This document shows, in pieces, positions 6,831-22,926 of a DNA stretch of 39,236 bases. A program made the position numbers and the translations under genes. The notes under the pieces were generated by a model. It did not search any database and was not told where the DNA came from. It saw nothing but the letters and a program-made list of their open reading frames with translations. The number at the start of each line of letters is the position of its first letter. The first letter of the stretch is position 1. The DNA lies in NCBI GenBank assembly GCA_001784565.1, contig MFRL01000032.1, positions 1 through 39,236 of the forward strand, read 5' to 3'. Source of the DNA: Candidatus Melainabacteria bacterium GWF2_37_15 (GTDB taxonomy: Bacteria; Cyanobacteriota; Vampirovibrionia; Gastranaerophilales; UBA9971).

Positions 6831-6857
6831 AATCTGCCTTAAGGCAGATTTTTTATT
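6831..6857 (+). terminator. Plus-strand terminator overlapping the cbiO stop codon
   Basis: An 8-bp stem (6831-6838 with 6843-6850) with the loop TTAA is followed by TTTTTATT. The T-run exists only on the plus strand, so it ends a plus-strand transcript, presumably the small gene at 6634. It overlaps the last codons of the minus-strand cbiO. Confidence 0.75.
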
Positions 6858-7696
6858 ATGTTGTGGTTATTAATAAGCTGTTTAAGCTCATTTTTAGTTC
6901 TTGGCGGTCTATGATTTTCAGGCAAAATTCCATTGTTTTTTAATTCATTATAAATTTCAAGAATAAGCGGCTTTTTCAGGTTTGCTTTTTCTATGAGTTC
7001 ATCATTATTAAATATAACGTCGGGAGTTCCTTCTTTTAAAACCTTGCCATTCTTCATAACCACAATAGTGTCAGCCCAGGAATAAGCTACATTAACATCA
7101 TGCGTAGATAAAATTATCGTTGTTCCTTTCTGATTAAGTTCTTCAAGGAAATCTATTATTTGTTCTTTATGTTTTGGGTCAAGATAGGTTGTAGGCTCGT
7201 CAAAAATTATGGCTTCAGGATTCATTGCTATAATGCTTGCGATAGTTACTCTTTTTTTCTGCCCATAGCTTAAAAAATGTGTTGGCTTATTCCTTAAATC
7301 ATTTATCCCTGTTGATTCTAATGCAGTATCAACGCATTTTTTAGTTTCTTCTACACATAATCCCAAATTCAACGGACCAAAAGAAACTTCCTGGCATACA
7401 TTTGCTGAAAAAAGCTGGGTGTCAGGATCCTGAAATACTATGCCCACCGATTTTCTTAGGTTCATGAGCGATTTGTTGTCATATTTCATTTCCTGGTTTT
7501 TAAAAAAAAGTTTTCCTTTTTGCGGTGTTAATATACCATTAAAATGCAGGAATAGTGTAGATTTTCCCGCACCATTTTCTCCAAGAAAAACAATTTTTTT
7601 ACCTTTTTCAATTTTTACACATATATTATCCAGCGCCTTTGTGCAGCCTGGATAGGCAAATGATACATCTTTTGCTTCTAAAATATACTCGCTCAT
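6839..7696 (-). CDS. cbiO: ECF cobalt transporter ATPase CbiO
   Basis: ATP-binding subunit that drives the energy-coupling-factor cobalt importer at the inner membrane. In 285 residues it has Walker A GENGAGKST at residues 39-47, the Q-loop FQDPDTQLF typical of ECF ATPases, the signature LSYGQ near 143, Walker B AIIFDEPT near 166 and the H-loop STHD. Its start overlaps the end of cbiQ by 4 bases. The cobalt assignment rests on cbiQ and on the cbi genes beside it; the matching CbiM and CbiN lie 14 kb away on the other strand. Confidence 0.93.
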   Translation of the reverse strand: MSEYILEAKDVSFAYPGCTKALDNICVKIEKGKKIVFLGENGAGKSTLFLHFNGILTPQKGKLFFKNQEMKYDNKSLMNLRKSVGIVFQDPDTQLFSANVCQEVSFGPLNLGLCVEETKKCVDTALESTGINDLRNKPTHFLSYGQKKRVTIASIIAMNPEAIIFDEPTTYLDPKHKEQIIDFLEELNQKGTTIILSTHDVNVAYSWADTIVVMKNGKVLKEGTPDVIFNNDELIEKANLKKPLILEIYNELKNNGILPENHRPPRTKNELKQLINNHNIIKNLP

Positions 7697-8430
7697 ACAT
7701 TAAATTCCATTAATATAAAAAATAATTCTATAACAATAATGAATACAATGTTTTTTGCTGAAAAGCAGTATTGTTTTTCCAGAATATTAAGGTTTCCGTT
7801 ATAACACCTGGATTCCAGAGAAATAAATAAATCATTAGCTTTTTTATAAGAAAGTATAAACATTGATGAAACAAGCTGGCTTAAAGACCGGAATTGGTTT
7901 TTTAAGCTGGAGTAGCCCAGTCTTGAGGATTGAGCGGTGTGGATTCTGCCGGCTATGTAAACTAATATAAATATCAACCTGTAAATTAGGCTAATAAGCT
8001 CGATTAGAATATCGGGCAATTTTAGTTTTTTTAAAACTGAGGTGAAATCAACAAGCGGCGTTGTTAAAGAAAAGAAATACAAACAGGATGCAGATCCCAA
8101 AGCCCTAAAAAACAATTTTGAGGCTGTTTCAATGCTTTGCTGGGTTATACTAAAAGAAAGCGCTGGTTCAGTATGGATTTCTATTAATATGGTTATTACC
8201 CCCAAAAACAGGAAACCAAAGGGAATAAGCATTAATTTAAAGTAAAATTTTGCTGGCACACCTGCTTTAAGAATAGTAAGAGAACTTACTGTAAGCAGTA
8301 TCAGGATTGGAGTAATAATTGAATTTGAGCTTAAGCAAACAATAATGGTCACCATAACGAAAATAAACTTTTCCATTGGGTGAACATTTATTAAATTATT
8401 TGAATAAGCGCATTTATCAATATTTAACAT
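7693..8430 (-). CDS. cbiQ: ECF cobalt transporter transmembrane protein CbiQ
   Basis: Integral membrane T-component that links the ATPases to the substrate-binding CbiMN. The 245 residues contain several hydrophobic helices, the cytoplasmic coupling region with SSRLGYSSLKNQFRSL, and SLESRCYNG near residue 210, which corresponds to the family's ExRG-type coupling motif in a somewhat degenerate form. It is first in a cbiQ-cbiO pair transcribed away from the cobalamin operon. Only 46 bases separate its start from the plus-strand kinase-like gene, too few for a riboswitch. There is no ribosome site, and a TATAGT box lies 10 nt before the ATG. Confidence 0.92.
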   Translation of the reverse strand: MLNIDKCAYSNNLINVHPMEKFIFVMVTIIVCLSSNSIITPILILLTVSSLTILKAGVPAKFYFKLMLIPFGFLFLGVITILIEIHTEPALSFSITQQSIETASKLFFRALGSASCLYFFSLTTPLVDFTSVLKKLKLPDILIELISLIYRLIFILVYIAGRIHTAQSSRLGYSSLKNQFRSLSQLVSSMFILSYKKANDLFISLESRCYNGNLNILEKQYCFSAKNIVFIIVIELFFILMEFNV

Positions 8431-8476: not shown

Positions 8477-9115
8477 ATGAAATTTAAGGGTAAGCACGCA
8501 AAAATTGAAATTTATCTTGAGCGACAAAGGGTTTTTAAAACTTATAAAGATCCTATGTATGCTGATAATGAGTATTTTGCGCTTTGTTTTCTTGCAGATC
8601 AGAATATAATGGACCTGAAACCACGAAAGGAATCCCTTTTTACAATTTCCCTGGATTTTATTCAGGATGCGAAAAGCTTGGATTTTACCTGTAAAATGGA
8701 TACTGAAAGATTTGTGGGGCTTTTAACCCTGTATTTAAGAAATTTACATAGATCTTCCCTGCATAATTTTGGCAAATACATAACACACGAAGATATTTTC
8801 CCTGATAATATCCTGATATGCGAAAAATTGGGCACATTATATTTTATAGATTGGGGATTATCTAAAAAACGGGAATCGCCATACCCTGATATTGCATCGT
8901 GCGCGCTTGGCGTATTTAATAATGAGGCTGGTCTTTACAGGTTATTTTTAGAACAATATTTTGGTGATATTTCAAAAATTAATTTTAATTTAATTGATAA
9001 ATACATAAATGATATTTACAATGAATGTAAATCCATACGGCTGGAAAACAATTTTGAAATAAATTCATTGGATGAGAGATTTGAAAAAGCAAAACACATT
9101 ATACAATCAATATAA
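8477..9115 (+). CDS. Phosphotransferase-fold (APH-like) small-molecule kinase, candidate threonine kinase
   Basis: 212 residues with the catalytic core of the aminoglycoside/choline-kinase superfamily. H104-x-D106-x4-N111 (HEDIFPDN) forms the catalytic loop and D125 in FIDWG is the metal-binding aspartate. The N-terminal lobe is short and diverged; K-T-Y-K near residues 22-25 could hold the ATP lysine. Its end overlaps the start of cobD by 44 bases and it is the first gene of the cobalamin operon. CobD needs L-threonine phosphate, made in other bacteria by unrelated PduX/BluE kinases. A role in phosphorylating threonine (or serine/aminopropanol) is therefore an attractive inference. A sugar or lipopolysaccharide-type kinase is the main alternative. 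Confidence 0.75.
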   Translation: MKFKGKHAKIEIYLERQRVFKTYKDPMYADNEYFALCFLADQNIMDLKPRKESLFTISLDFIQDAKSLDFTCKMDTERFVGLLTLYLRNLHRSSLHNFGKYITHEDIFPDNILICEKLGTLYFIDWGLSKKRESPYPDIASCALGVFNNEAGLYRLFLEQYFGDISKINFNLIDKYINDIYNECKSIRLENNFEINSLDERFEKAKHIIQSI

Positions 9116-10136
9116 ACACGGCGGGGGCTATAAAAAAGCAGCCGGGCTGGAGGGTTTGGACTGGGAGCAAGTAACAGATTATTCCACGTCTATAAATTGG
9201 ATGGCAGCTAAATTTTATCCTGAAAACCTGATATACCCGCATCGTGAAAATATTCAATACCCTGATCCTGAATATAAAGACCTTCAGGAAACAATTGAAG
9301 AGTTTCACGGTTACTCACCAAAGTATTTTTTAATGACACATGGCGCAAATGAAGCTATTTCATACCTGTTTCATATGTTTTTGTTACAGAGCTTTAAAGA
9401 TGTTGCTTTAGCTGGTTCAACGTACTCTGAATACAACAAATGCTGCGATTTAAACGGGTTTAATTCAGTTAAAGTAAGCTATGATGAGCTGTATAGCTTA
9501 AGAGATAAAATAATTGTTATAGTAAACCCCAATACCCCTTTTGGAACATATTTTGATCTGAAGCCCCGGCTGGAAAATTTATTAAATCAGGGCAATACAG
9601 TGGTACTTGATGAAAGTTTCATTGATTTTACAGACAAACCATCAATGTATGAACTGGTAAAGGATTATCCAAATTTATTTATAATTCACTCCTTGACCAA
9701 GTTCTACGGATCAGCCGGAGCAAGGCTTGGACTGATACTCAGTTCAAATAAACTTTTGCAGGAATTCATGTCGGTTTTACTTCCACCGTGGACTATTTCT
9801 GCTTATGATAGCTGGTTTTATAAGAATATGATTCCTAAATATAGGGAAATTCAGAGTGCAACCCTGGCGTGGATTGCTGAGATAAATAAAAAGACAGATA
9901 ATGTTTTAAGCAAATCCAGTAACATTAAAAGTTTAGGTGATTCAATCACCTGTTATCGAACCCTGACTCTGGAAAAAGAAGTTTCTGACATCAGAAAATT
10001 CTTTTTAAATGAATATAAGATCTATGTGAGGCCAACATCAGACTTTTTTAACTGCTCAAATAACTCATTTAGGGTCGGGTTGCGATTACCAGAGGAAAAC
10101 GACCCACTATGGCGTGCTATTGAGGATATCGGATGA
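9072..10136 (+). CDS. cobD: L-threonine-O-3-phosphate decarboxylase (CobD/CobC type)
   Basis: PLP enzyme that makes aminopropanol phosphate, the linker of the cobalamin nucleotide loop. The 354 residues begin with the family's KHGG pattern followed by DYSTSINW. They contain NPNTPFGTYF and DESFIDF (cofactor contacts), and SLTKFYG with the Schiff-base lysine at residue 210. It is related to histidinol-phosphate aminotransferase, but the N-terminus and the operon fix it as CobD. ATG 9072 lies inside the upstream kinase gene and no good ribosome site is visible, so translational coupling is likely. It ends in an ATGA overlap with cbiP. Confidence 0.9.
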   Translation: MRDLKKQNTLYNQYKHGGGYKKAAGLEGLDWEQVTDYSTSINWMAAKFYPENLIYPHRENIQYPDPEYKDLQETIEEFHGYSPKYFLMTHGANEAISYLFHMFLLQSFKDVALAGSTYSEYNKCCDLNGFNSVKVSYDELYSLRDKIIVIVNPNTPFGTYFDLKPRLENLLNQGNTVVLDESFIDFTDKPSMYELVKDYPNLFIIHSLTKFYGSAGARLGLILSSNKLLQEFMSVLLPPWTISAYDSWFYKNMIPKYREIQSATLAWIAEINKKTDNVLSKSSNIKSLGDSITCYRTLTLEKEVSDIRKFFLNEYKIYVRPTSDFFNCSNNSFRVGLRLPEENDPLWRAIEDIG

Positions 10137-11524
10137 CCAAAAGACAGAATTTATTGTTTATAGGAACAACATCCAATGCCGGAAAAACTTTTATTACCGG
10201 CTTTGCAGGCAAAATATTAAAAGAGCATTTTGGAATACAAACAGCTCCTTTTAAAGGCCAGAATATGTCCAATTACGCCATTGTTTGCGAATACAACAAG
10301 GAAATTTCCATTGCCCAGGCATCTCAAGCAGCATTAATAGGAGTAGAGCCTAAAGCGGATATGAACCCGGTGATTTTAAAACCTCTTGGTGAGAGCCGCT
10401 CACAGGTTATAGTCAGGGGTGTCCCTAAAAAAATAGTTTCAGCAAGGACATACTACCAGGAAATAGGCGAACTCAAGCCAGAGGTAGACGCTGCATACGA
10501 AAATTTAAAGCAAACCTGCGACATGCTTGTTATTGAAGGCGCAGGATCGGGATTTGAATTAAATTTAAAGAACCGTGACCTTGCAAACCAGCATATGATG
10601 GAAAAACCTGATGTTGATGTTGTTCTGGTAACAAATATAGAGGATGGCGGGGTATTCTCCTCAATTCTCGGCTCATACCAGCTTATGAGCGAGGATATAA
10701 AAAAACGCTTTAAAGGCGTGATTATAAACAATTTCAGGGGTGATGTTTCGCTGTTTGATGAAGGAAAAGAAATTATAGAAAACTGGGGAATCCCGGTATT
10801 AGGAGTAATTCCTCATATTAACTATGGGCTGGACAGCGAAGATTCACTTGCTGAAATGAAAAGTTTTGAGCAGAAAAATAAGGAGCTTGTACATGTTGGC
10901 GTGATTAAATATCCAAGAGCCAGCAATATTAACGATGTTGAATCGCTTGTACATGACCCGAACGTGCAGGTATCTTTTATTAACCAGAGAACTAATCTTG
11001 AAATATTTGATAAAATTATCCTTCCTGGCTCAAGGGCTGTGCTGGATGACTTGCGGTGGCTGAAAAAAACAGGAATTTATGATGATTTAAAAGATACAAA
11101 AGTTGAAATTTACGGTATTTGCGGTGGGTACCAGATGCTCCATAAAACAATAAACGATCCTCTTGGCACAGAAAGCGGAGAGGGCAAGCCTGATAAAGAT
11201 GAAGGACTTGGATTTGTTCCGGGGAACATAGAGTTCAAAGCAGAAAAAATCCTTAAAAGGCAGGATTACACTCTATATGAAGAGATAAAAGTGCCTGGTT
11301 TTGAAATGCACACAGGCGTGTCGGATTCAAATCCTGTATTTTTTGATTCAAATCACGTAAAAGGCTCGATGGTGCATGAAATTTTCCATGATGATAATTT
11401 CAGGAAATGGTGGCTAAATTCTAGCTCTTATAAAGACTGGAGCTTTAAAGCCTGGAAAAAATCACATCAGGACAGGGTAGCTAGTACATTGAAAGAACTT
11501 ATTGACTGGGAGAGAATGCTTTGA
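10133..11524 (+). CDS. cbiP: Cobyric acid synthase CbiP/CobQ
   Basis: Glutamine-dependent enzyme that amidates four side chains (b, d, e, g) of adenosylcobyrinic acid a,c-diamide. The N-terminal ATP domain has GTTSNAGKTF near residue 10 and APFKGQNMSNYA near 40. The C-terminal glutamine amidotransferase domain has C330 in ICGGYQML and H415 in VHEIFHDDNFR. Length 463 is slightly below the usual 480-500. It overlaps cobD by 4 bases, and its stop codon overlaps the TTG start of cbiB. Confidence 0.95.
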   Translation: MTKRQNLLFIGTTSNAGKTFITGFAGKILKEHFGIQTAPFKGQNMSNYAIVCEYNKEISIAQASQAALIGVEPKADMNPVILKPLGESRSQVIVRGVPKKIVSARTYYQEIGELKPEVDAAYENLKQTCDMLVIEGAGSGFELNLKNRDLANQHMMEKPDVDVVLVTNIEDGGVFSSILGSYQLMSEDIKKRFKGVIINNFRGDVSLFDEGKEIIENWGIPVLGVIPHINYGLDSEDSLAEMKSFEQKNKELVHVGVIKYPRASNINDVESLVHDPNVQVSFINQRTNLEIFDKIILPGSRAVLDDLRWLKKTGIYDDLKDTKVEIYGICGGYQMLHKTINDPLGTESGEGKPDKDEGLGFVPGNIEFKAEKILKRQDYTLYEEIKVPGFEMHTGVSDSNPVFFDSNHVKGSMVHEIFHDDNFRKWWLNSSSYKDWSFKAWKKSHQDRVASTLKELIDWERML

Positions 11525-12423
11525 TACTTGACAGCGATTGGATAATAATTGTTTTTATAGCCCTTGTTGTTGATTTCATAATAGGGGAGTTCCCTATTAA
11601 ACACCCAGTAGAATTCATGGGCGATTATGTAAAGTATTTTGAAAAAATAGCATATAAAGACAGCGTTAAAAGTGGAATGTGGCTTTTGGTTTCTCTGATA
11701 AGTATTGTTGGATTAGTTTCTATAATTATTCAGTTTATTTTACCTGCAATATTAGTGGGTATTATTGCTTCCACTGGCCTTGCAAGTAAGTCACTTCAGA
11801 CTCATATTAAAAATGTTTTGTTTGAAGAAAATGATGAAAAGAAAAGAGAGAAATTAGCAGGATTGGTTACCAGAAATACCAGGATCCTTGACGATAAAAA
11901 AGTGTACGCCTCATTAATTGAAACCCATTCAGAAAATTTAGCAGATGGTTTTATATCACCGCTATTTTATTTAATTTTGTTTGGATTGCCGGGGATTATG
12001 GTTTTTAAGGCGGTTTCCACACTTGACTCTATGGTTGGCTATAAAAACGAGAAATATTATAATTTCGGCAAAGTGTCGGCAATTGCTGATGATGTGCTGA
12101 ATTTTATCCCTGCACGACTCACTGGGTTAATAATATGGCTAATGAGCAAACATAAAATACTTCTTAAAAAACTTTTTGAGGATGCTAAAAAATACAGCTC
12201 CAGCCCAAATGCCGGTTATCCCGTTGCGGCTGCGGCCTATGCTGTTGGAGTGCAAGTAGGTGGAACTGTTTATTATGGTGATATGCAGGTGGATAAAGCC
12301 GAAATTGGCCATGAAATAACTCATGACTATAAAGAGGCAGCTTTTAACTTTTTAAAGATACATTTAAAAATTGAGGTAATAATCCTAATTTTGGTTACAA
12401 TTGGAGTAGTATTAGCGTTATGA
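11521..12423 (+). CDS. cbiB: Adenosylcobinamide-phosphate synthase CbiB
   Basis: Membrane protein that joins aminopropanol phosphate (from CobD) to adenosylcobyric acid. The 300 residues carry HPVEFMGDYVKYFEK near residue 20, TRNTRILDD near 119, HSENLADGFISPLFY near 140 and SPNAGYPVAAAAYAVGV near 226, all typical of the family, with hydrophobic helices between them. It starts with TTG at 11521, overlapping the cbiP stop, with GGGAGAG as ribosome site. It ends in an overlap with cbiK. Confidence 0.95.
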   Translation: MILDSDWIIIVFIALVVDFIIGEFPIKHPVEFMGDYVKYFEKIAYKDSVKSGMWLLVSLISIVGLVSIIIQFILPAILVGIIASTGLASKSLQTHIKNVLFEENDEKKREKLAGLVTRNTRILDDKKVYASLIETHSENLADGFISPLFYLILFGLPGIMVFKAVSTLDSMVGYKNEKYYNFGKVSAIADDVLNFIPARLTGLIIWLMSKHKILLKKLFEDAKKYSSSPNAGYPVAAAAYAVGVQVGGTVYYGDMQVDKAEIGHEITHDYKEAAFNFLKIHLKIEVIILILVTIGVVLAL

Positions 12424-13202
12424 AAAGATTAAGGCATTATAATAAAGAATTAGCGGTTGTATTATCTGTTTTCGGTTCATCTGAACCCGCTGCAATGGCG
12501 CAGTATGAAGAACTAAAACAGGAAATTAAACATAGCCTTCCCTCTGAGGCTGAGATAAGGATGGCAGTTTCCTCAAGAACAGTGCTTAAAAATCTTGAAA
12601 ATAAAGGTCAGAAATTCTATACACTCCCTGAAGAACTAGCTAACATTGACAGATTAGGTTACAAGAAGGTAATTGTAGCCTCTATAAACCTTTTCCCCAC
12701 TGATGAGCATGAACATTTATTAAAAATAACAGAAGGTTTTAAAAACAATATTTCTCCCGCTCGTTATGAAGTTACAATGCCGTTTTTTGCAAAAGCAAAG
12801 CCGACAAATGAATTCCTGAAAGCTCTGGATAATAAATTAAGGCAGGAACATAGCCCATCAAGCATTGTTTACATTGCACACGGCTCGTCGAATTTATGCA
12901 ATACAGGAAGTCAGACATTTTTATACGTTAAGGAATACCTGAAAATGCTTAATCCCAATAATTATTTCTTCACAATTGAAGGTGCATTCAAGTATGAAAG
13001 AGTCTTAATTGATATAAAAGGCAGCGTTTTGGTAGTTCCCTTGCTTCTTGTAACAGGAAATCATATGTTGAATGATATTTACGAAATAAAAGAGGAGCTT
13101 GATGGTCAAATGCCTGAAGATTTCAGCCTTTTAAAGCTGGAAAACACTAGAAAATACTTTGTTGATGAAGTTCAGGAGGCAATTAAAAGATGTTCTATAT
13201 AA
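12420..13202 (+). CDS. cbiK: Sirohydrochlorin cobaltochelatase CbiK
   Basis: Inserts Co2+ into sirohydrochlorin (the early-cobalt, anaerobic route). The 260 residues show the CbiK layout: VLSVFGSSEPAA at the N-terminus, H154 in IAHGSSN, and H215 in TGNHMLNDI, the two histidines expected to bind metal. FPTDEHEH near residue 97 also fits the family. There is no signal peptide, so it is a cytoplasmic enzyme unlike the periplasmic Desulfovibrio form. It overlaps cbiB by 4 bases and cbiL by 13 bases. Confidence 0.92.
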   Translation: MKRLRHYNKELAVVLSVFGSSEPAAMAQYEELKQEIKHSLPSEAEIRMAVSSRTVLKNLENKGQKFYTLPEELANIDRLGYKKVIVASINLFPTDEHEHLLKITEGFKNNISPARYEVTMPFFAKAKPTNEFLKALDNKLRQEHSPSSIVYIAHGSSNLCNTGSQTFLYVKEYLKMLNPNNYFFTIEGAFKYERVLIDIKGSVLVVPLLLVTGNHMLNDIYEIKEELDGQMPEDFSLLKLENTRKYFVDEVQEAIKRCSI

Positions 13203-13849
13203 TATCATTGGGCCCTGGAGACCCTGATTTAATAACTATTAAGGCGATTAAAGCACTTGAAAAATGCGACATCATTTTTGTGCCCGTTAGGTCAAAAATC
13301 CTGGAATGGGAGGGATCAGTTGCCTACAAAATCTTAAGCAGGCTTGAACATAACTTTCAAAGCAAGTTCCAGCCTATTTACACACCCATGAGCTACAACC
13401 CCGAATCGTGGAAAGACCAGGTTGAACAGATTGCAAGCGCTTGTATTACCAATAAAACCGTTGGTTTTGTAACTCTTGGCGATGCGGCTGTTTACAGCTC
13501 TGCTTATTATCTGTTAAGCATAATTAAAGAGAAATACAACTCAATTTACGAGAATACTGAGGTTATTCCCGGCGTTACATCAATATCTTACGCATCGGCA
13601 AAGGTTAAAATCCCGCTGTGCCTTGGAAATTCCAGTCTTGAAATAGTCCCAATGCACAGGGAAGACGTAAAATCTACAAAAGTTTATATGCGGCTTCACA
13701 AAGGTGATGATGTAAGGAGTCTAAAAGGCGAAGAATTGTACTATTTTGAGAACCTTGGAATGGAAAATGAAGCTTATGGCGAGGGTACGCCAGGTATAAT
13801 AGAGAATTATCTCACTGTTATCATAAATTTTAATGAGGGACAGAAATGA
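13190..13849 (+). CDS. cbiL: Cobalt-precorrin-2 C20-methyltransferase CbiL
   Basis: SAM-dependent tetrapyrrole methylase that adds the C20 methyl group. The 219 residues have the N-terminal GPGDPDLITIKAIKAL loop, TLGDAAVYSSAYYL near residue 97 (the family's GDP motif reads GDA here), and VIPGVTSISYAS near 125. It follows cbiK with overlapping ends, so metal insertion and the first ring methylation are encoded in pathway order. It overlaps cbiA by 4 bases. Confidence 0.93.
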   Translation: MFYIISLGPGDPDLITIKAIKALEKCDIIFVPVRSKILEWEGSVAYKILSRLEHNFQSKFQPIYTPMSYNPESWKDQVEQIASACITNKTVGFVTLGDAAVYSSAYYLLSIIKEKYNSIYENTEVIPGVTSISYASAKVKIPLCLGNSSLEIVPMHREDVKSTKVYMRLHKGDDVRSLKGEELYYFENLGMENEAYGEGTPGIIENYLTVIINFNEGQK

Positions 13850-15183
13850 AGGCTGCAGTAATCTCGGCATTATCATCAGGTCAGGGCAAAACCCTGTTTA
13901 CAATGGCGCTTTTACAATGGCTAAAAGAAAATGTTGGTTCTGTTCGGCCTTTTAAAGTGGGGCCAGATTATATTGATCCAAGATTTCACGAAAAAATAAC
14001 TGGTGTGGCCTCTGTCAACCTTGACCTATATATGATGTCAGAAGTTGAAGTCAAAAACGCTTTTTCATACTATACAAAAGACTTTGATTGTACGGTTGTT
14101 GAGGGTGTAATGGGGTTATATGACGGCCTTGATTATGGTACTTCAACCTATGAAGTGGCTAAAGCCATAAACATACCGACTATTTTAATTATTTCAGCAG
14201 AGGGTTCATATGCGACATTAGTGCCTGTATTAAGAGGGATTCTTGATTATAAGCCAAATAATACTGTGCAAGGTGTTATTTTAAATAAGGTTTCATCGGA
14301 AAAACATTATGAAACGGTTGCAAAACAAATAAATAGCGAAATTCCAAACCTGAAAATCCTTGGCTGGATACAAAAAGGGCTGGATATTATTACTTCAAGA
14401 CATCTCGGCCTTGATTTGACCGAGCTGGAAAATGAAAAGTTTAGTGAAATTGCGAATAAAGTGATGGAGCATATAAATATTACAGAGCTCATGGATTTTA
14501 TGGAGCTAAAACTTTCTATAACCTCTGAAAAAGACTGCTTCATGCGCAATATTGAAAAACATAAAAAAACAATTGCGGTTGTGAATGACAGGGCATTTTC
14601 CTTTGTTTACAAGCAAAATCTTGATTTTTTTGATAAATTTTTCGAAAAAGTTTATAGAATTTCAGCACTGAATAATGACGAAATTCCGCAAGATGCTGAT
14701 GTGGTTTATATTCCGGGCGGGTATGTTGAAACACCAGATGTAGCTTATATTCTGGACAAGGCTGATAAATTTAAGTCAAGTTTAAAAGCTTTTTCAGAGA
14801 ATCCTAAAAAGAAAATTTATGCAGAATGCGCTGGATTTATGTTTTTAGGGGAAAAAATCCAGACCACTGACGGAAATTGGATTAACGGAGCCGGGATATT
14901 GCCTGTTGATTTTGAAATACAGAAGAAAAGAAACCGCCTTGGATATTATAAAGCTATAGACAAAGATGATCTAATGTTATATAAAGGCCATGCATTCCAT
15001 TATTCCTGCCCTACAAATATAGAAGAAGAAGCTATAGTCAAATGGGGATTGTTTAAGGATAAAGATTCACAAGCCAGTGTTGGTGCCTGGACAAATGAAA
15101 AAAGGAATGTACTTGGCACATACTTGCATACGCTTTTCTATAACCAACCCGAATTAGTTTTAAAATATTTTATTGGAGAATAA
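13846..15183 (+). CDS. cbiA: Cobyrinic acid a,c-diamide synthase CbiA
   Basis: ATP- and glutamine-dependent amidation of the a and c carboxylates of cobyrinic acid. The ATPase domain has SSGQGKTLFT near residue 8, FKVGPDYIDPRFH near 40 and VVEGVMGLYDGL near 84. The glutamine amidotransferase domain has YIPGGYVE near 289, nucleophile C328 in AECAGF and H428 in YLHTLF. Length 445 is normal. The ends abut or overlap cbiL and cbiC. Confidence 0.95.
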   Translation: MKAAVISALSSGQGKTLFTMALLQWLKENVGSVRPFKVGPDYIDPRFHEKITGVASVNLDLYMMSEVEVKNAFSYYTKDFDCTVVEGVMGLYDGLDYGTSTYEVAKAINIPTILIISAEGSYATLVPVLRGILDYKPNNTVQGVILNKVSSEKHYETVAKQINSEIPNLKILGWIQKGLDIITSRHLGLDLTELENEKFSEIANKVMEHINITELMDFMELKLSITSEKDCFMRNIEKHKKTIAVVNDRAFSFVYKQNLDFFDKFFEKVYRISALNNDEIPQDADVVYIPGGYVETPDVAYILDKADKFKSSLKAFSENPKKKIYAECAGFMFLGEKIQTTDGNWINGAGILPVDFEIQKKRNRLGYYKAIDKDDLMLYKGHAFHYSCPTNIEEEAIVKWGLFKDKDSQASVGAWTNEKRNVLGTYLHTLFYNQPELVLKYFIGE

Positions 15184-15846
15184 ATGACAGATTTTCAGAT
15201 AAAAAAACCGGAAATAAAAGACCCTCAGGAAATCGAAGACCTTTCATTAAAAACAATATCGAGGGAAGCTGCTACCTATCCTGCATTCAATAAATTTTAT
15301 CCTGAAGAACAAAAAGTAGCGCAGAGGATGATCCACACAACCACCTGCTTTGAGCAGATAATAAACAATATTTACTTTTCTGACAACGCAACCACTCGAA
15401 TCAAGGACCTTTTGAAAAACGGTGCAGCTATAATTACTGATACTAATATGATTAAGGCTGGTTTAAGCAAAAATTATACGGAAAAATATGGAAACAATGT
15501 TATCTGTTATGTAGCGGAAGTCCCACGCCAGGAAGGGGTAACAAGAACAGACACAGCCGTGAAAAAAGCTTTAGAAGAATGCAATAATAAGCCTATGATT
15601 TTGGCTTGCGGTAATGCCCCAACATTTTTATATGCTGCTATTGAATATATAGTGAAAGAAAAGCTAGAAATATCTAATATTGCGTTAATTGCAATGCCTG
15701 TTGGGTTTATAAATGTGGTTGAAAGCAAGGAATACACGCTTGAATTCATGCAAAAGCTTGACGTACAGGGTATTGTACTAAAAGGGCGCTATGGCGGCTC
15801 ACCGCTTGTAGTAAGTACGTTACACGCCTTGTATAAAGCTATTTAG
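15184..15846 (+). CDS. cbiC: Cobalt-precorrin-8 methylmutase CbiC
   Basis: Moves a methyl group from C11 to C12 to give cobyrinic acid. The 220 residues contain the catalytic histidine H51 in MIHTTTCFE, ITDTNMIKAG near 80, GNAPTFLYAAIE near 142, MPVGFINVVESKE near 168 and GRYGGSPLVVSTLHAL at the C-terminus. It starts directly after the cbiA stop codon with no gap. Confidence 0.95.
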   Translation: MTDFQIKKPEIKDPQEIEDLSLKTISREAATYPAFNKFYPEEQKVAQRMIHTTTCFEQIINNIYFSDNATTRIKDLLKNGAAIITDTNMIKAGLSKNYTEKYGNNVICYVAEVPRQEGVTRTDTAVKKALEECNNKPMILACGNAPTFLYAAIEYIVKEKLEISNIALIAMPVGFINVVESKEYTLEFMQKLDVQGIVLKGRYGGSPLVVSTLHALYKAI

Positions 15847-15854
15847 GAGCAGTT

Positions 15855-16304
15855 ATGTGTAAAAAAAACACAATGGGATCTGAAGTTGTTGAGGGATTCG
15901 CCTGTAAACCTCAAAATTTGGACGTGAATAAGCCTCTCATGTATTCGGCCGCCCAGATTTTTATTTGTGAAGGTCACCGTTGCGGCGAAACCCAGGACAC
16001 AGACCTGACTGATAAAGTCAGAGTCCTAATAAAAAATCTTGGTTATGATAAAGGAAATAACAGAATAAAGGTTACACGAACCCATTGCCAGGGAGCATGT
16101 AGGTTCAGGAATTTCATGTGTGCATATAGAAATGGGAGTGCTGTTAATTTTTCTCCTGAAAACAGCTTTTCTGCCTGGAAAAAAGTAAATCAATGGAACG
16201 AGGAGCAATGGCAAGAGCTGATAAAATATCTTGCAGAAGGCATAGAACCCCAAAATATAATAGAATTTAAAGTGGAAGAAAAGATTTATTGTGACTGTGA
16301 ATGA
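15855..16304 (+). CDS. Thioredoxin-fold 2Fe-2S ferredoxin-like protein
   Basis: 149 residues with the cysteine spacing of the COG3411-type 2Fe-2S ferredoxins: C38 and C43 in FICEGHRCGE, then C78 and C82 in THCQGACRF. Additional cysteines stand at 2, 17, 89, 146 and 148. It lies between cbiC and cbiD, with 8 bases to cbiC and a 14-base overlap with cbiD, so it is co-translated with corrin-ring genes. Some cobalamin operons (for example cbiW of Bacillus megaterium, from memory) carry a ferredoxin-like gene. An electron donor for a reduction step, or a partner of the missing CbiJ step, is possible but unproven. Confidence 0.8.
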   Translation: MCKKNTMGSEVVEGFACKPQNLDVNKPLMYSAAQIFICEGHRCGETQDTDLTDKVRVLIKNLGYDKGNNRIKVTRTHCQGACRFRNFMCAYRNGSAVNFSPENSFSAWKKVNQWNEEQWQELIKYLAEGIEPQNIIEFKVEEKIYCDCE

Positions 16305-17379
16305 GAAACCCCTGAAAATTGGATATTCAACCGGAAGCCACGCCACTTCCGCTTTAAAAGCAGCGCTTATGCTTTTATTGGGAATTAAAAGTAATGTTGA
16401 AAGTGTTGAAATTACCTTACCTGAAGGTAATATTGCATTTCTTGATATTGATAAAACTGAAAAATTTGATGATTATGTCAAAATTGAAGTTGTTAAAGGC
16501 GATAATGATGACATTGATGTTACAAAAGGATGCAGAATAGTTTGTTTTGTAGGGTTTGACTCCAAAAAAATTCCGTACACACAGCATGAAATTCAGCATA
16601 AACCCTATAAAATTGATAACATATTTATTTATGCTGGAAAAGGACTTGGGGTGGTAACTAAGGAAGGTTTAAAGCCGCCAGTTGGCTACCCAGCAATAAA
16701 TCCCGCCACATTGGAAATGATGAAGAATAATATCCAATTCTTGTATATTAATACTGAAGTTTATGTATTTTTTGAGGTGGAAAACGGCGAAGAAATCGCA
16801 AAAAATACTGCAAATTTAAAAGCGGGCGTGGTTGGAGGAATATCTTTTCTAGGCAAAAAAGGCATAGTTAAGCCAATTTCTACTGATGCGTACCTGGAAT
16901 CACTTGAAGTAGAAATAAATGTAGCTGCAAAAAATCCCTCAAAAACCATTATTTTTACAATGGGGAATGAATGCCTTGAATTTGCAAAAAAAGTTTACGG
17001 CCTTGATCCTGAGTGCTATGTTGAGATTGGCAATTTTGTATATGATTCGCTCTCATTAATAAAGAATAAAGGGTTCTCTAAGGTGGTAATCTCAGCTAAT
17101 ATTGGTAAACTTACAAAAATTGCACAGGGAAAAAAGAATACTAACAGCAGATATGGCGGCATTGATTTTAAAATACTCCAATCCTGGTTAGGAATATACA
17201 CCATATCAGATACAATAACCACGGTAGGCGCGCTGGAAGTACACCTTCCGCATTTGGTAGGGAAATTATATGAGCAGGTTTCAGTCCATGCCTTAAATGT
17301 ATTGAAAAAATGGATGAATGAACTTAATATAAAGGGAACTAACCTTGAAATCCTACTGAAAGAGGCCATAATATGCTAA
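16291..17379 (+). CDS. cbiD: Cobalt-precorrin-5B C1-methyltransferase CbiD
   Basis: Methylates C1 during anaerobic corrin formation. The 362 residues show GYSTGSHATSALKAAL near residue 11 (usually GYTTGSCAAAA), AGKGLGVVTKEGLKPPVG near 115 followed by AINP, and HLPHLVGK near 318. The start is GTG at 16291, inside the 2Fe-2S gene, with a second GTG two codons later. It ends in a 7-base overlap with cbiET. Confidence 0.93.
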   Translation: MTVNEKPLKIGYSTGSHATSALKAALMLLLGIKSNVESVEITLPEGNIAFLDIDKTEKFDDYVKIEVVKGDNDDIDVTKGCRIVCFVGFDSKKIPYTQHEIQHKPYKIDNIFIYAGKGLGVVTKEGLKPPVGYPAINPATLEMMKNNIQFLYINTEVYVFFEVENGEEIAKNTANLKAGVVGGISFLGKKGIVKPISTDAYLESLEVEINVAAKNPSKTIIFTMGNECLEFAKKVYGLDPECYVEIGNFVYDSLSLIKNKGFSKVVISANIGKLTKIAQGKKNTNSRYGGIDFKILQSWLGIYTISDTITTVGALEVHLPHLVGKLYEQVSVHALNVLKKWMNELNIKGTNLEILLKEAIIC

Positions 17380-18539
17380 CAATAGCCGGATCAGGAATTA
17401 ACGATTATTCACTGCAAGAACTGTCACAAAAGGTTTGTTTCTCTGATTTTGACTGCCTAATAGCTGATGTGAATTTTAACACACCAGCAAATAAGGAGCT
17501 TATATCCAATAGTGTTCAGGTAAAATTCCTGTCATGCAAGGATATAAAACCATTTATCCTTGAAAATACAATCAAAAAGGTTTTATACGTTGTGACAGGC
17601 AGTCCACTGTTTTTCTCGGCTGCGCAGGTAATTATGAAAGATATAAAGGATGTTAATTTAATTCCGGCGGAGTCTTCAAAGGATTATTTTTTGAAAAAGC
17701 TGGGAATTGCTGAAAACGAGGTGACTTCACTTTCTCTTCATGGCAGGGAAAGCGTTGATTTAACAAAGTTTCTCACTACAAAATATACATTTGTGCTGTG
17801 TGATAAAGATTCCATAGAAAAACTAAGCGAATTAACCTATTATATAAAGGATGATCTGATTTTTTATCTGGGATCAAAGCTGGGCTCTGTTGATGAAAGG
17901 ATTGAAACAGTTAATTTGTATGACATTAATGCTGAAGCATGCGTTCCTTATGTCTTATTGATTGAGAAAAAGTTTTCTTCAATTAATGAAGGCTTTGAAA
18001 CCAATGCAGGAATGATTACAAAGGCGGATAAAAGAGTCCTTACGATTCAGGCACTCGAATTAGAGCCCAATATGACTATGTGGGATATAGGCGCAGGTTC
18101 AGGTTCTGTTTCAATTGAAGCATACAAATTTTTCAAAATTAACACAGTTCTTTTTGAGAAAAATGAGGCACAGTGCCGGTTTATTAAGAAGAATTTATCA
18201 AACCACAAAGTTGCATCAGCCAAGTTAAGTGAAGGAGACGTGCTGGAAAATTATGAAAACCAGCCAAAACCTGACCGAATATTTATCGGGGGCGGCGGGG
18301 AAGCTGTGTTGTCAAGAATAAAGCTGTTTTATGATGAATTAAAAGACAATGGCATACTTGTTGCGAATATTATAGGTATGGAAAATCTAACGGAGGCGCT
18401 ATCAAGTCTAAAAAATAGCGATTTAACCTATGAAATCAGACGAATCGACCTAACTTACTATAAAAAAATTAGTGAAAATATACAGCTTAGTATTCCCGAG
18501 CCGGAAAGAAGTCTGTATCAGTTAATATTGAGGAAGTAA
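17373..18539 (+). CDS. cbiET: CbiET fusion: cobalt-precorrin-7 C5- and -6B C15-methyltransferase/decarboxylase
   Basis: A fused enzyme of 388 residues like CobL. The C-terminal CbiT half (from about residue 205) has a clear SAM site, WDIGAGSGSVS at 237-247, and methylates C15 with decarboxylation. The N-terminal CbiE half should methylate C5, but its SAM-binding loop is degenerate: AGSGINDYSL replaces the usual GIGPGxxxxLT, and GSPLFFSA replaces GDPGFYS. PAESS, K-LG and SLHGR remain recognisable. Activity of the CbiE half is therefore less certain. It is spaced 2 bases from cbiF. Confidence 0.9.
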   Translation: MLTIAGSGINDYSLQELSQKVCFSDFDCLIADVNFNTPANKELISNSVQVKFLSCKDIKPFILENTIKKVLYVVTGSPLFFSAAQVIMKDIKDVNLIPAESSKDYFLKKLGIAENEVTSLSLHGRESVDLTKFLTTKYTFVLCDKDSIEKLSELTYYIKDDLIFYLGSKLGSVDERIETVNLYDINAEACVPYVLLIEKKFSSINEGFETNAGMITKADKRVLTIQALELEPNMTMWDIGAGSGSVSIEAYKFFKINTVLFEKNEAQCRFIKKNLSNHKVASAKLSEGDVLENYENQPKPDRIFIGGGGEAVLSRIKLFYDELKDNGILVANIIGMENLTEALSSLKNSDLTYEIRRIDLTYYKKISENIQLSIPEPERSLYQLILRK

Positions 18540-18541
18540 TC

Positions 18542-19276
18542 ATGCATAAAGTAATTTTTGTAGGAGCAGGGCCTGGTGATCCAAAACTTCTTACCGTTAA
18601 GGGAAAAGAAGTTCTGGAATCTGCTAAAGTAGTGCTTTATACAGGCTCACTTGTGCCAAAAGAGGTGCTTAGCTGGGCGCCGAAAGATTGTTTAATTGAA
18701 AATTCAGAAAAAATGAGTTATCAGGAAATTTTTGACTTTATTGAGAAATATACCAAAACTTTCGATGTTGTAAGGCTTCATACAGGTGATCCATCTTTAT
18801 ATTCCACAATAGCAAAACAAATAGAATTTTTAAAATCAAAAAGCATACCTTATGAAGTAATTCCGGGCGTAACAGCCTCATTTGGCGCAGCTGCACAGCT
18901 CGGAATTGAATACACAATTCCAGGTGTGAGCCAAACACTGATAATTTCTCGAGTAGAAGGTAAAACCCCAAGCCCTGAAAGCATTGAAACCATACTTTCC
19001 TGCAAAAATTCCTCGCATGTTTTTTATCTTTCAATAAATTTAATGGATGAGCTTTATAACAAAGCTATAAGTCTTGGCTACTCAGGTGATACCCCGGTAT
19101 GGGTTGTGGAAAAAGCAACCTGGCCGGAACAAAGGGTGATAAAGGGAACATTAAATAATATAAGACAGAAAATTGAGGAAGCAGGAATAAAAAGAACTGC
19201 GATAATACTGTTTGGCGAGTATTTAAACCAGCAAGAACGAGAAGAATCACACTTATATACAAGGTTTGACTATTAA
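18542..19276 (+). CDS. cbiF: Cobalt-precorrin-4 C11-methyltransferase CbiF
   Basis: SAM-dependent methylation of C11. The 244 residues start with VIFVGAGPGDPKLLTVKG, then VVLYTGSLVP, RLHTGDPSLYSTI near residue 78, VIPGVTASFGAAAQLG near 105 and a C-terminal ILFGEYL. All of these are typical of CbiF/CobM. It lies 2 bases after cbiET and 3 bases before cbiG. Confidence 0.95.
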   Translation: MHKVIFVGAGPGDPKLLTVKGKEVLESAKVVLYTGSLVPKEVLSWAPKDCLIENSEKMSYQEIFDFIEKYTKTFDVVRLHTGDPSLYSTIAKQIEFLKSKSIPYEVIPGVTASFGAAAQLGIEYTIPGVSQTLIISRVEGKTPSPESIETILSCKNSSHVFYLSINLMDELYNKAISLGYSGDTPVWVVEKATWPEQRVIKGTLNNIRQKIEEAGIKRTAIILFGEYLNQQEREESHLYTRFDY

Positions 19277-19279
19277 AGT

Positions 19280-20179
19280 ATGAAAAATATAGCCCTGATA
19301 ACACTGAATAATCCCGGACTTGAAGCAGCACAGCGCACTGCGGAGGATTTACTTTTAATTGATAAAAAGTTTAATGTGAAAATTTATAATAAGAATATTG
19401 AAGAAAACATTGATGAAATTTGGGCTAACAGCGATGCAATCATCTGGTTTACAGCTACAGGAATAGTTATAAGGAAGATTGCAAGATTACTGGAGTCAAA
19501 AACCAAAGACCCGGCGAATTTAGTGATGAATTTATCCAGAACACAGGTAATTCCCCTACTTTCGGGTCACATTGGAGGTGCAAATGAACTTGCACAAAAA
19601 CTAACCGAGGTTATTCCAGGTCTTGTTCCATTTATAACTACTGCTACAGACAGTCTGGATGTGTTTGCATTTGATACTTTCGCTAAAGAGCAGGGATTTG
19701 ATACTGTTAACATCCATAAACTTGCTGCTGTATCCAATGCTTTAATTAATAAAGAGCCCATAGTGATAATTTCCCCGTTTAATGAGGATACAGAACACCT
19801 TCATATAAAGATAAAGCCTATATTTTTCGGCATAGGATTAAACAGGGGGACTTCTTTTGAGGAATTAAAAAGGGACGTGCTTGGTTTCACAAAGAAGCAT
19901 AATTTAAGTATTGAAAATATTGCCCAAATAGCATCTTTTGAGGCTAAAAAAGATGAAGAAGCGCTGCATTTGTTAGCGAAAGAACTTAATGTAGAACTTA
20001 TATTCTTTAATGAAGATGATATTAACAATCTCAATATGGAATTTTCTCCATCCCAGGCCGAAAAACACTTCAATATTAAAGGCGTGGCTGAGCCTACAGC
20101 GGTTCTAGCCTCAAGATTTAAAACTTTATTTATTAAAAAGAATATTTACAAAAACACGACCATAGCAGCAGCATTTTAA
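19280..20179 (+). CDS. cbiG: Cobalt-precorrin-5A hydrolase CbiG
   Basis: Opens the delta-lactone and releases the C20 unit as acetaldehyde, the step that defines the anaerobic pathway. In 299 residues it has the N-terminal domain with ATGIVIRKIA near residue 55 and SGHIGGANELAQ near 95. The C-terminal CbiG domain has GIGLNRGTSFEEL near 182 and VAEPTAVLAS near 270. CbiG together with CbiK and CbiD shows that this is the oxygen-independent route. Confidence 0.94.
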   Translation: MKNIALITLNNPGLEAAQRTAEDLLLIDKKFNVKIYNKNIEENIDEIWANSDAIIWFTATGIVIRKIARLLESKTKDPANLVMNLSRTQVIPLLSGHIGGANELAQKLTEVIPGLVPFITTATDSLDVFAFDTFAKEQGFDTVNIHKLAAVSNALINKEPIVIISPFNEDTEHLHIKIKPIFFGIGLNRGTSFEELKRDVLGFTKKHNLSIENIAQIASFEAKKDEEALHLLAKELNVELIFFNEDDINNLNMEFSPSQAEKHFNIKGVAEPTAVLASRFKTLFIKKNIYKNTTIAAAF

Positions 20180-20200
20180 ATTTAAAGTTAAGGAGATTAT

Positions 20201-20989
20201 ATGAATAAAGGTGCAATTTACATATTATCAACAGGAACAGGTGATCCCGGCCAGTTGACTCAGAATGTTGTTGATTATTTGCAAAAATCCGACCTTATTG
20301 TCAGCTATACCAAGTATCTTAAAGATATTGAGCCTGTGGTTAAAGGCAAGGAAGTTTACTCTACGGGTATGACTCACGAGGTTGAGCGCTGCAAGTACGC
20401 AATTGAGCAGGCTTTAACCTGTAAAAAAGTTGCCCTTATTTCAAATGGGGACGCCAATGTGTATGGAATGGCAGGGCTGGTGCTGGAAATAATAGAAGAA
20501 AACAACCTCTGGAATAAGCTGGAGGTGGTTATTGAGCCTGGCATAACCTCTTTTCTTGCAGCTGCAGCTAAAGCAGGCGGGGCGGTTATGAATGATTTTG
20601 CCATAATATCATTGTCAAACCTGCTGACCCCTGACGATAAAATACAAAAACGCATACACGCAGCGTTTGAAGCGGATTTTGTTGTTGGAATATACAACCC
20701 TCTCTCGCATTCAAGAAAAGAACCTTATTTTATGTTTCTTGATGCCTTAAAGCAATATAAAAAAGCTGAAATACCAGTAGTTGTCGCGCAAAACATAGGG
20801 AGAAAAGAAGAGCAAATTTGGGTAAAAACAGTTGGAGATTTGCTGGAATTAAAAGACAATATGGATATGATTAATATGTCAACAGTGCTGATTATTGGGA
20901 ATTCCAACACAAAAACCGTTAATTCTGGCAAAAATGTTGTTACAAAAAGAGGTTACCAGCAGAATTACGATTACAAAATTGATGAATGA
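20201..20989 (+). CDS. cbiH: Cobalt-precorrin-3 C17-methyltransferase CbiH
   Basis: Methylates C17 and contracts the ring. The 262 residues contain STGTGDPGQLT near residue 7, DLIVSYTKYLKDIEP, the GDANVYGMAGL loop near 86, VIEPGITSFLAAAAKAG near 110 and VGIYNPLSHSRKEP near 165. It has a strong ribosome site (AAGGAG) after a 21-base gap from cbiG, the longest gap in the operon. It ends in an 8-base overlap with the Cys-rich gene. Confidence 0.94.
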   Translation: MNKGAIYILSTGTGDPGQLTQNVVDYLQKSDLIVSYTKYLKDIEPVVKGKEVYSTGMTHEVERCKYAIEQALTCKKVALISNGDANVYGMAGLVLEIIEENNLWNKLEVVIEPGITSFLAAAAKAGGAVMNDFAIISLSNLLTPDDKIQKRIHAAFEADFVVGIYNPLSHSRKEPYFMFLDALKQYKKAEIPVVVAQNIGRKEEQIWVKTVGDLLELKDNMDMINMSTVLIIGNSNTKTVNSGKNVVTKRGYQQNYDYKIDE

Positions 20990-21347
20990 AAAGATAAAAC
21001 AAAGATTAAAAGAATTAAGCGGGCTTGAGCCTGAAAAAATAGCTGAAAAGTTTTCGTACAAGGTTATGCAAAAAGAATGTCCTGATTTTTGCAGGCTTTA
21101 TAAGGAAAACAAAACCTGCCACAACTTACCTCCAGAAGAATTAAATTGTTTTAGCTGTTATTGCCCGAATTATAAACTTGAAGAAAGTTATGATGAAGAG
21201 TCAGGGCTTCGTAAAAAAGGGGTTTGTTCAATTAATTCCAAATTTGGCTTTTATAAGCATAAAGAAAATTATCTTATTCTAACCTGTATAAACTGTACAG
21301 TGCCTCATAGGAAAGCCTATATAAAAAATTTATTGAAAAAGTTTTAA
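20982..21347 (+). CDS. Cysteine-rich small metal-binding-type protein in the cobalamin operon
   Basis: 121 residues from ATG 20982, which overlaps the cbiH stop. A longer frame from 20895 would run inside cbiH and lacks support. The protein has at least nine cysteines in a pattern like ECPDFC, NCFSCYCPNY and CINCTVPH. This matches my memory of the zf-like Cys-rich small domain (Pfam PF04071), which often accompanies cobalamin genes in Clostridia and archaea and is sometimes fused to CobD. Metal or cobalt handling is a reasonable guess, but no function is established from the sequence. Confidence 0.8.
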   Translation: MNEKIKQRLKELSGLEPEKIAEKFSYKVMQKECPDFCRLYKENKTCHNLPPEELNCFSCYCPNYKLEESYDEESGLRKKGVCSINSKFGFYKHKENYLILTCINCTVPHRKAYIKNLLKKF

Positions 21348-21552: not shown

Positions 21553-21581
21553 AAGCTACAGTTTTAACGTGTAGTTTTTTT
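21551..21581 (+). terminator. Terminator in the riboswitch expression platform
   Basis: An approximately 10-bp stem (21551-21560 with 21570-21579, one G-U pair) and a 9-nt loop run into seven T residues. It sits between the riboswitch and the porin gene, which argues for control by premature termination. Confidence 0.75.
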
Positions 21582-21621
21582 GTTTGGGTTTAAATTTTTA
21601 ATTAGTGGTAAGGAGATTATA

Positions 21622-22926
21622 ATGCAAAAGAAACGAATTTTAGCAGTTCTGGCTATGGCTGGATTAATGGCACTGAGTTCACATGTTCAGGCCGAGGAAG
21701 AAATTCTAACAGATAACCTTGACGCTTCCCCAATACAACTTGCATTAGAAGATTCGGACTATAAGGCTAAGGTTGAAGAAAATTTTTATGGCAAAACAAA
21801 AAACCTTTATAATGGGCTGGCAGAGAAGGGTTACACAATAGAGTTATACCATACCAATGATAGTATGATAAATTTTGGTGGCCAGCTCTCTAAAACCTCC
21901 AGCGTTAAATCCATGAGCCTTCTGGATATGTCAATAACCCTTGATACAGAACGCATGGGCTTATGGAAAGGCGGTACTGGTTATATTTTAGGAGAAACAA
22001 TGTACGGCAAAGGCCTGACAGAAAGCAGGCTGGGTGATCTTCAATACGTGAGCAACATAGAAGTAACGGATGAAAGAACCCAGTTAAGCGAATTCTGGTA
22101 TGAACAAAAGTTATTAGATGAAAGAATAAGACTGGGCGCTGGAAAACACGATGCTAGTGTAGAATTTGGCCTGCTTGAAATGGCTGGAGATTATTTAAAC
22201 TCATCATTTACCTTAATGCCTAATATCCCTGCCCCAACTCTTCCTGATCAGGCAATAGGTACCTGGGCAGAAATTGCTCCTGTAGACTGGTATAGCTTTA
22301 AAACAGGCATTTTTGACGGTGGTTCAAGAGGTGATGACCTTGGTTTCAGGACAGCTTTTGAAGGTAAAAGCGGCTATGTAACTTTTTTTCAGAATGAACT
22401 AAAGCCGAGTATTAAAGGTCATAAAGGGAGTTATATTGTTGGCTCCTGGACTCATTCAGGAAATCTTGAAACCATACCGGCTAATGAAGAGGATGAGGTG
22501 GTTTTCAAGAAGAGCAATTATGGCTTATACACTGCATTCCAGCAAATGATTTATAAAGAACAGGATACTGAGGATCAGGGCTTGTCGTTAATGGGTCAGT
22601 TTAGCTGGACTCCTTCAAACAGGAATGAAATTGCCCGTTATTATGGCGCTGGCTGCGCATATAAAGGCCTGATCCCAAAAAGAGATGAAGATGTGTTAGG
22701 GATGGGAATGGCTTTAGCAGATCTAAGTCCGAAATATAAACTTGCTGAAGGCTTACAAAACGAGGCGGCAATAGAATTTTTCTATAAATTTGTGTTAAAT
22801 GACACAATTACGCTTCAACCTGATTTCCAAATAGTTCTAAATAATGGCGGAAGCGAAAAAACCGGGTTTGCGCTTGGCTTACGCTCAATAATAAGTATTG
22901 CGCCAAAAAGCCCAGAAAGGATATAA
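21622..22926 (+). CDS. OprB-family outer-membrane porin, candidate cobalt or corrinoid channel
   Basis: 434 residues from ATG 21622, chosen because AAGGAG lies 8 nt upstream and a signal peptide follows (MQKKR, a hydrophobic core, cleavage after VQA at residue 24). A longer frame from 21580 starts inside the terminator. The mature part is beta-rich with alternating aromatic residues. It ends with the OprB pattern NEAAIEFFYKFVLNDTITLQPDFQIV and a final strand LGLRSIISI. The family usually conducts sugars. Here the B12 riboswitch upstream and cbiMN downstream (3-base gap) suggest that it passes cobalt, a cobalt chelate or a corrinoid through the outer membrane. Substrate is inference. Confidence 0.85.
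   Translation: MQKKRILAVLAMAGLMALSSHVQAEEEILTDNLDASPIQLALEDSDYKAKVEENFYGKTKNLYNGLAEKGYTIELYHTNDSMINFGGQLSKTSSVKSMSLLDMSITLDTERMGLWKGGTGYILGETMYGKGLTESRLGDLQYVSNIEVTDERTQLSEFWYEQKLLDERIRLGAGKHDASVEFGLLEMAGDYLNSSFTLMPNIPAPTLPDQAIGTWAEIAPVDWYSFKTGIFDGGSRGDDLGFRTAFEGKSGYVTFFQNELKPSIKGHKGSYIVGSWTHSGNLETIPANEEDEVVFKKSNYGLYTAFQQMIYKEQDTEDQGLSLMGQFSWTPSNRNEIARYYGAGCAYKGLIPKRDEDVLGMGMALADLSPKYKLAEGLQNEAAIEFFYKFVLNDTITLQPDFQIVLNNGGSEKTGFALGLRSIISIAPKSPERI

Follow-up and report, generated by a model that had tools for sequence, protein, structure and literature searches.

In Salmonella and its relatives, L-threonine is phosphorylated by the kinase PduX (EC 2.7.1.177), which is not the only enzyme connected with this reaction. 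BluE is the L-threonine kinase of Rhodobacterales and a non-orthologous replacement of PduX (PMC8123684, PMC6249242). In Dehalobacter, where pduX is lacking, CbiU (Dehre_1608) has been proposed as an L-threonine kinase from its operon context (PMC4285132). The subsequent steps, from threonine phosphate onward, are established biochemistry (PMC7242693, PMC6249242).

We analyzed a stretch of 39,236 nucleotides, here referred to as "the window", which contains a candidate kinase gene next to cobD. Its predicted reaction and pathway position are common with PduX, and so is the close linkage to cobD, as a PduX-like gene of Listeria lies directly after cobD and overlaps it by 11 bp. However, PduX has the GHMP fold (PF00288), while the window kinase gives no PF00288 match. 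With BluE, which was reported from Rhodobacterales and is compared here by description only, the window kinase would share the reaction and the replacement of PduX. CbiU is likewise a context-based candidate for the same gap in the absence of pduX, but it belongs to the phosphoglycerate-mutase/homoserine-kinase-like family TIGR02535, unlike the window kinase. The aminoglycoside phosphotransferases (APH), choline kinases and type-II homoserine kinases (PF01636, PF01633 and NF003558) possess the same catalytic signature; the window kinase differs from them in scoring below every curated cut-off, in its short length and in its linkage to cobD. Since replacements of PduX are already known (BluE) or proposed (CbiU), the window kinase is a fresh candidate for a recognised gap. 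A literature search that was thin on subscription papers turned up no APH-type kinase reported for the threonine step.

Gene organization of the cobamide locus

The genes of the locus are compiled in Table 1. The first-pass annotation had placed the kinase at the head of a cobalamin operon, and this is borne out by the genes that follow it, namely cobD, cbiP, cbiB, a cbiK-like gene and the corrin ring genes. Just 46 bp separate the kinase from the divergent cbiQ, and a search of the window with Rfam gathering scores gave no cobalamin riboswitch.

Table 1. Features of the cobamide locus and neighbouring genes in the window
Feature	Coordinates	Strand	Basis
cbiO and cbiQ, divergent cobalt transporter genes	6839..8430	-	CbiQ: TIGR02454, E 3.9e-47; CbiO ORF identified from reading its sequence
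Candidate small-molecule kinase	8477..9115	+	ORF, ATG start, 212 aa, motif, orthologues
cobD, threonine-phosphate decarboxylase-like PLP enzyme	9072..10136	+	TIGR01140 (below cut-off, see text); 354 aa
cbiP/cobQ, cobyric acid synthase	10133..11524	+	NF001989, E 1e-129, over cut-off
cbiB, adenosylcobinamide-phosphate synthase, uses the CobD product	11521..12423	+	TIGR00380, E 2.7e-59, over cut-off
cbiK-like cobalt chelatase	12420..13202	+	PF06180, E 2.3e-21, over cut-off
cbiL, cbiA, cbiC, ferredoxin-like gene, cbiD, cbiET, cbiF, cbiG, cbiH (corrin ring)	13190..20989	+	Names from cbiL to cbiH given from reading the sequences, without family search
Cys-containing ferredoxin-like protein, between cbiC and cbiD	15855-16304		149 aa; no Pfam or NCBIfam match
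Cys-rich small protein, end of the operon	20895-21347		Zinc-finger-like PF04071, below cut-off
Outer-membrane-porin-like protein, between the operon and cbiM	21580-22926		448 aa; signal-peptide-like start

The window CobD matches TIGR01140 with E 1.1e-54 and 185.7 bits, which is below the cut-off of 290.55, and HisC comes second (5e-34). Comparison with its orthologues shows the conserved segments YKHGGGY and SLTKF. The overlap of 44 bases between kinase and cobD, as given in the first-pass annotation, is exact if the ATG at 9072 is taken as the start of cobD. The first nine or so residues of CobD have no counterpart in the orthologues, so that cobD may in fact begin a little further downstream and the exact overlap is uncertain. 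Some overlap is unavoidable, because the stop codon of the kinase (9113-9115) falls within the stretch coding for the conserved YKHGGGY.

The genome that contains the window (G000) is a Gastranaerophilales-type MAG and belongs to a non-photosynthetic cyanobacterial lineage; the assembly has 2.27 Mb and a completeness of 92%. Another contig of this genome (G000:C89) carries cobU, cobT, cobS and cobC together, the last three named from reading their sequences. With these genes present elsewhere, what the pathway visibly lacks is a threonine kinase.

Two further proteins of the window were noted. The ferredoxin-like protein is conserved with 58% identity at the related locus L013. The porin-like protein possibly takes part in the uptake of metal or corrinoid.

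Catalytic residues and family assignment of the kinase

The central part of the 212-residue kinase, translated from the forward strand, is shown below.

ITHEDIFPDNILICEKLGTLYFIDWGLSKKRESPYPDIAS

Its catalytic stretch reads ITH104-E-D106-IFPD-N111-ILICEKLGTLYFID125WGLSKKRE, which confirms the HxDx4N motif (104-111) and D125 named in the first-pass annotation. In the protein-kinase-like superfamily, the residues that correspond to H104, D106, N111 and D125 make up the catalytic loop and bind the metal. In all three orthologues, the window protein included, K21, E32, H104, D106, N111 and D125 are invariant. The other two orthologues come from two other families and are 50% and 43% identical to the window protein; a motif kept over such distances is not a chance occurrence. 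By analogy, K21 may be assigned as the N-lobe lysine and E32 as the helix-C glutamate, and strands and a helix are predicted there with low confidence.

Single-sequence scans of the window kinase gave Pkinase at E 0.0023, Bud32 at 0.0025 and APH at 0.0096, all below the curated cut-offs; for APH (PF01636) the score was 16.1 bits against a cut-off of 23.2. When all three members were scanned, each matched both APH (weakly, best E 1.7e-4) and Bud32 (best E 2.1e-6), whereas Choline_kinase (PF01633) and the homoserine kinase family NF003558 (E 0.0044) were each matched by one member. Across these family scans Bud32 and the Ser/Thr protein kinases score about equal to APH, and in a profile search against PDB sequences the protein kinases rank first. 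The AlphaFold model of the window kinase is poor (pLDDT 57.8) and its structural matches are meaningless. The model of the L013 orthologue is somewhat better (pLDDT 62.5, pTM 0.67), and its top fold matches are APH(9)-Ia, choline kinase B and APH(2'')-Ia, with E values of 0.007 to 0.05, a best value of 0.0074, low TM scores and no structural match at E 0.001. No further credible APH protein was found in the window's genome.

Membership in the protein-kinase-like superfamily is secure from the residues; within it, the APH/choline-kinase branch is, on modest scores, the better guess and not proven.

Distribution of the kinase, cobD and PduX

We found the kinase in three of the 383 sampled genomes of the order (G000, G011 and G012), which belong to three different families. 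Among the 241 genomes of the order sampled for CobD, exactly these three hold close relatives of the window CobD (E up to 1e-40). No carrier of this CobD lacks the kinase, and the kinase was never seen without cobD. It lies directly upstream of cobD in each carrier, overlapping it by 8 bp at L013 and separated from it by 82 bp in G012, where the gene order is cobU-kinase-cobD-cbiP. The co-occurrence with cobD in relatives, whose lack the first-pass annotation had named among its refutations, held in all carriers.

Beyond the carriers, we disregarded weak matches to the kinase (E about 4e-4 to 9e-4) elsewhere in the class, since they lie in long ORFs or a broken frame. The GTDB contigs gave no match other than the record of G011, and three cyanobacterial CobD loci have no kinase within about 1.5 kb on either side. 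Scans of plasmids and viral contigs found no kinase relative, and on this ground the gene was rejected as phage or plasmid cargo. Because only close relatives come within reach of these scans, the family may extend further than observed; with three carriers, most if not all of which are MAGs, and none found elsewhere, the phylogenetic support is not broad.

We further searched all three carrier genomes with the GHMP kinase domain PF00288 and found no PduX. In the window's genome the matches were two proteins (G000:C24, L004 and G000:C56, L005), both IspE over the TIGR00154 cut-off. In G011 and G012 there were one IspE and one ThrB each, the ThrB over the TIGR00191 cut-off. As a control, the cobD-linked protein of Listeria, which we regard as PduX on account of its position and its GHMP match, scored 49.7 bits with PF00288, so any PduX should have been found. 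Thus the possibility raised in the first-pass annotation, a PduX elsewhere in the genome, did not materialize. BluE was approached indirectly, through AAA_33: all matches in the window's genome are below the cut-off, and the ones we looked at were identified as AroK, Gmk, CooC-like, Tmk, TsaE, FtsY and MiaA.

A role as replacement of homoserine kinase was rejected, since G011 and G012 carry a GHMP ThrB besides this kinase. As a separate observation, the window's genome has no GHMP ThrB besides its two IspE-type kinases.

A natural comparison is provided by G017, a genome of the same genus as G011 that was found through a CbiP search of the order. A single contig (L053, G017:C27, 4903-10622) carries cobU-cbiP-cbiK-Cys-rich-cobT-cobS-cobC, and a genome-wide search found neither the kinase nor a close cobD. 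Here cobU and cbiP are 6 bp apart, where G012 has the kinase and cobD between them; that is, kinase and cobD are missing from the G017 cluster as a unit. G017 keeps the genes of the nucleotide loop and salvage without kinase or cobD, and therefore the kinase goes with cobD, the side-chain gene, rather than with salvage. Resting on one imperfect assembly (92% complete), this pattern argues for a role upstream of CobD and against a cobinamide or ribazole kinase. We also noted that cbiB and the ring genes are absent from this stretch, and that the Cys-rich protein between cbiK and cobT is the counterpart (40% identity) of the one at the end of the window's operon.

Proposed function and alternative explanations

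Taken together, the product of the candidate gene is probably a non-orthologous L-threonine kinase that feeds CobD and replaces PduX. The evidence for this consists of the ORF, the conserved residues, the cobD linkage, the joint absence in G017, the lack of PduX and the well-populated pathway. The replacement suggested in the first-pass annotation is thus supported, though not proven, by the linkage in three of three carriers and the absence of PduX; threonine as the substrate is inferred from the fold, the linkage and the pathway gap. The kinase would phosphorylate the side-chain hydroxyl of free L-threonine, presumably with ATP, and the resulting L-threonine O-3-phosphate would pass to the co-translated CobD, to which the kinase would be coupled. 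CobD would decarboxylate it to (R)-1-aminopropan-2-ol phosphate, and CbiB, encoded two genes on from cobD, would join this product to cobyric acid. PduX would then have been replaced on an APH/choline-kinase scaffold instead of a GHMP scaffold.

The main alternative substrate is L-serine. A kinase acting on serine, or on serine and threonine, would lead CobD to ethanolamine phosphate and the cell to norcobamides, with identical chemistry and gene context. The window CobD is distant from the characterised CobDs, falls under the TIGR01140 cut-off and has the serine-phosphate decarboxylase of Sulfurospirillum among its homologues, all of which fits such a product. We nevertheless hold this to be unlikely, as the norcobamide cluster of Sulfurospirillum has no kinase beside its decarboxylase, and serine synthesis provides serine phosphate as an ordinary metabolite, so that a dedicated kinase would not be required. 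It is a little less probable that the kinase acts on another intermediate, such as free aminopropanol or, in salvage, cobinamide or alpha-ribazole. Amino alcohols are frequent substrates of enzymes with the APH/choline-kinase fold, and the kinase comes after cobU in G012, but the window's genome has CobU, the known cobinamide kinase, and an aminopropanol kinase would leave CobD without a supply of its phospho-substrate. Moreover, a salvage or nucleotide-loop role predicts the opposite of G017, where cobU, cobT, cobS and cobC are kept and kinase and cobD are absent.

Control of CobD or of the operon by a protein kinase or by a regulatory ATPase of the Bud32 kind would agree with the Pkinase and Bud32 scores and with the best PDB sequence matches given above. 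However, a full protein kinase would be expected to be longer than 212 residues, the segment YPDIAS after the catalytic Asp resembles the D-x-A segment of APH enzymes, and APH(9), choline kinase and APH(2'') lead the fold matches. To our knowledge, a regulatory protein kinase in cobamide operons has no precedent, and we regard this explanation as quite improbable. There is an archaeal precedent for a CobD that phosphorylates threonine itself: MM2060 of Methanosarcina mazei reportedly has its own threonine kinase activity and is said to carry a C-terminal extension of roughly 110 residues. CobD alone might therefore suffice, and the role of the kinase would be unrelated or accessory. The window CobD, with its 354 residues, lacks such an extension, and a kinase never found without cobD fits poorly with an unrelated role, which makes this the least probable explanation and a very improbable one.

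With the L-threonine kinase as the preferred reading, these proteins somewhat probably represent an undescribed family of L-threonine kinases on the APH/choline-kinase scaffold, translationally coupled to CobD and replacing PduX, and similar small kinases adjacent to cobD might close this gap in further cobamide producers. The carriers are rare gut relatives of cyanobacteria and the range is phylogenetically small, so with three sampled genomes the reach of the finding is limited for now. The threonine kinase step is among the least accounted-for in B12 synthesis, and many B12 makers have no known enzyme for it. A common and easily overlooked kinase fold paired with cobD offers a concrete candidate, and it hints at what to seek beside orphan cobD genes.
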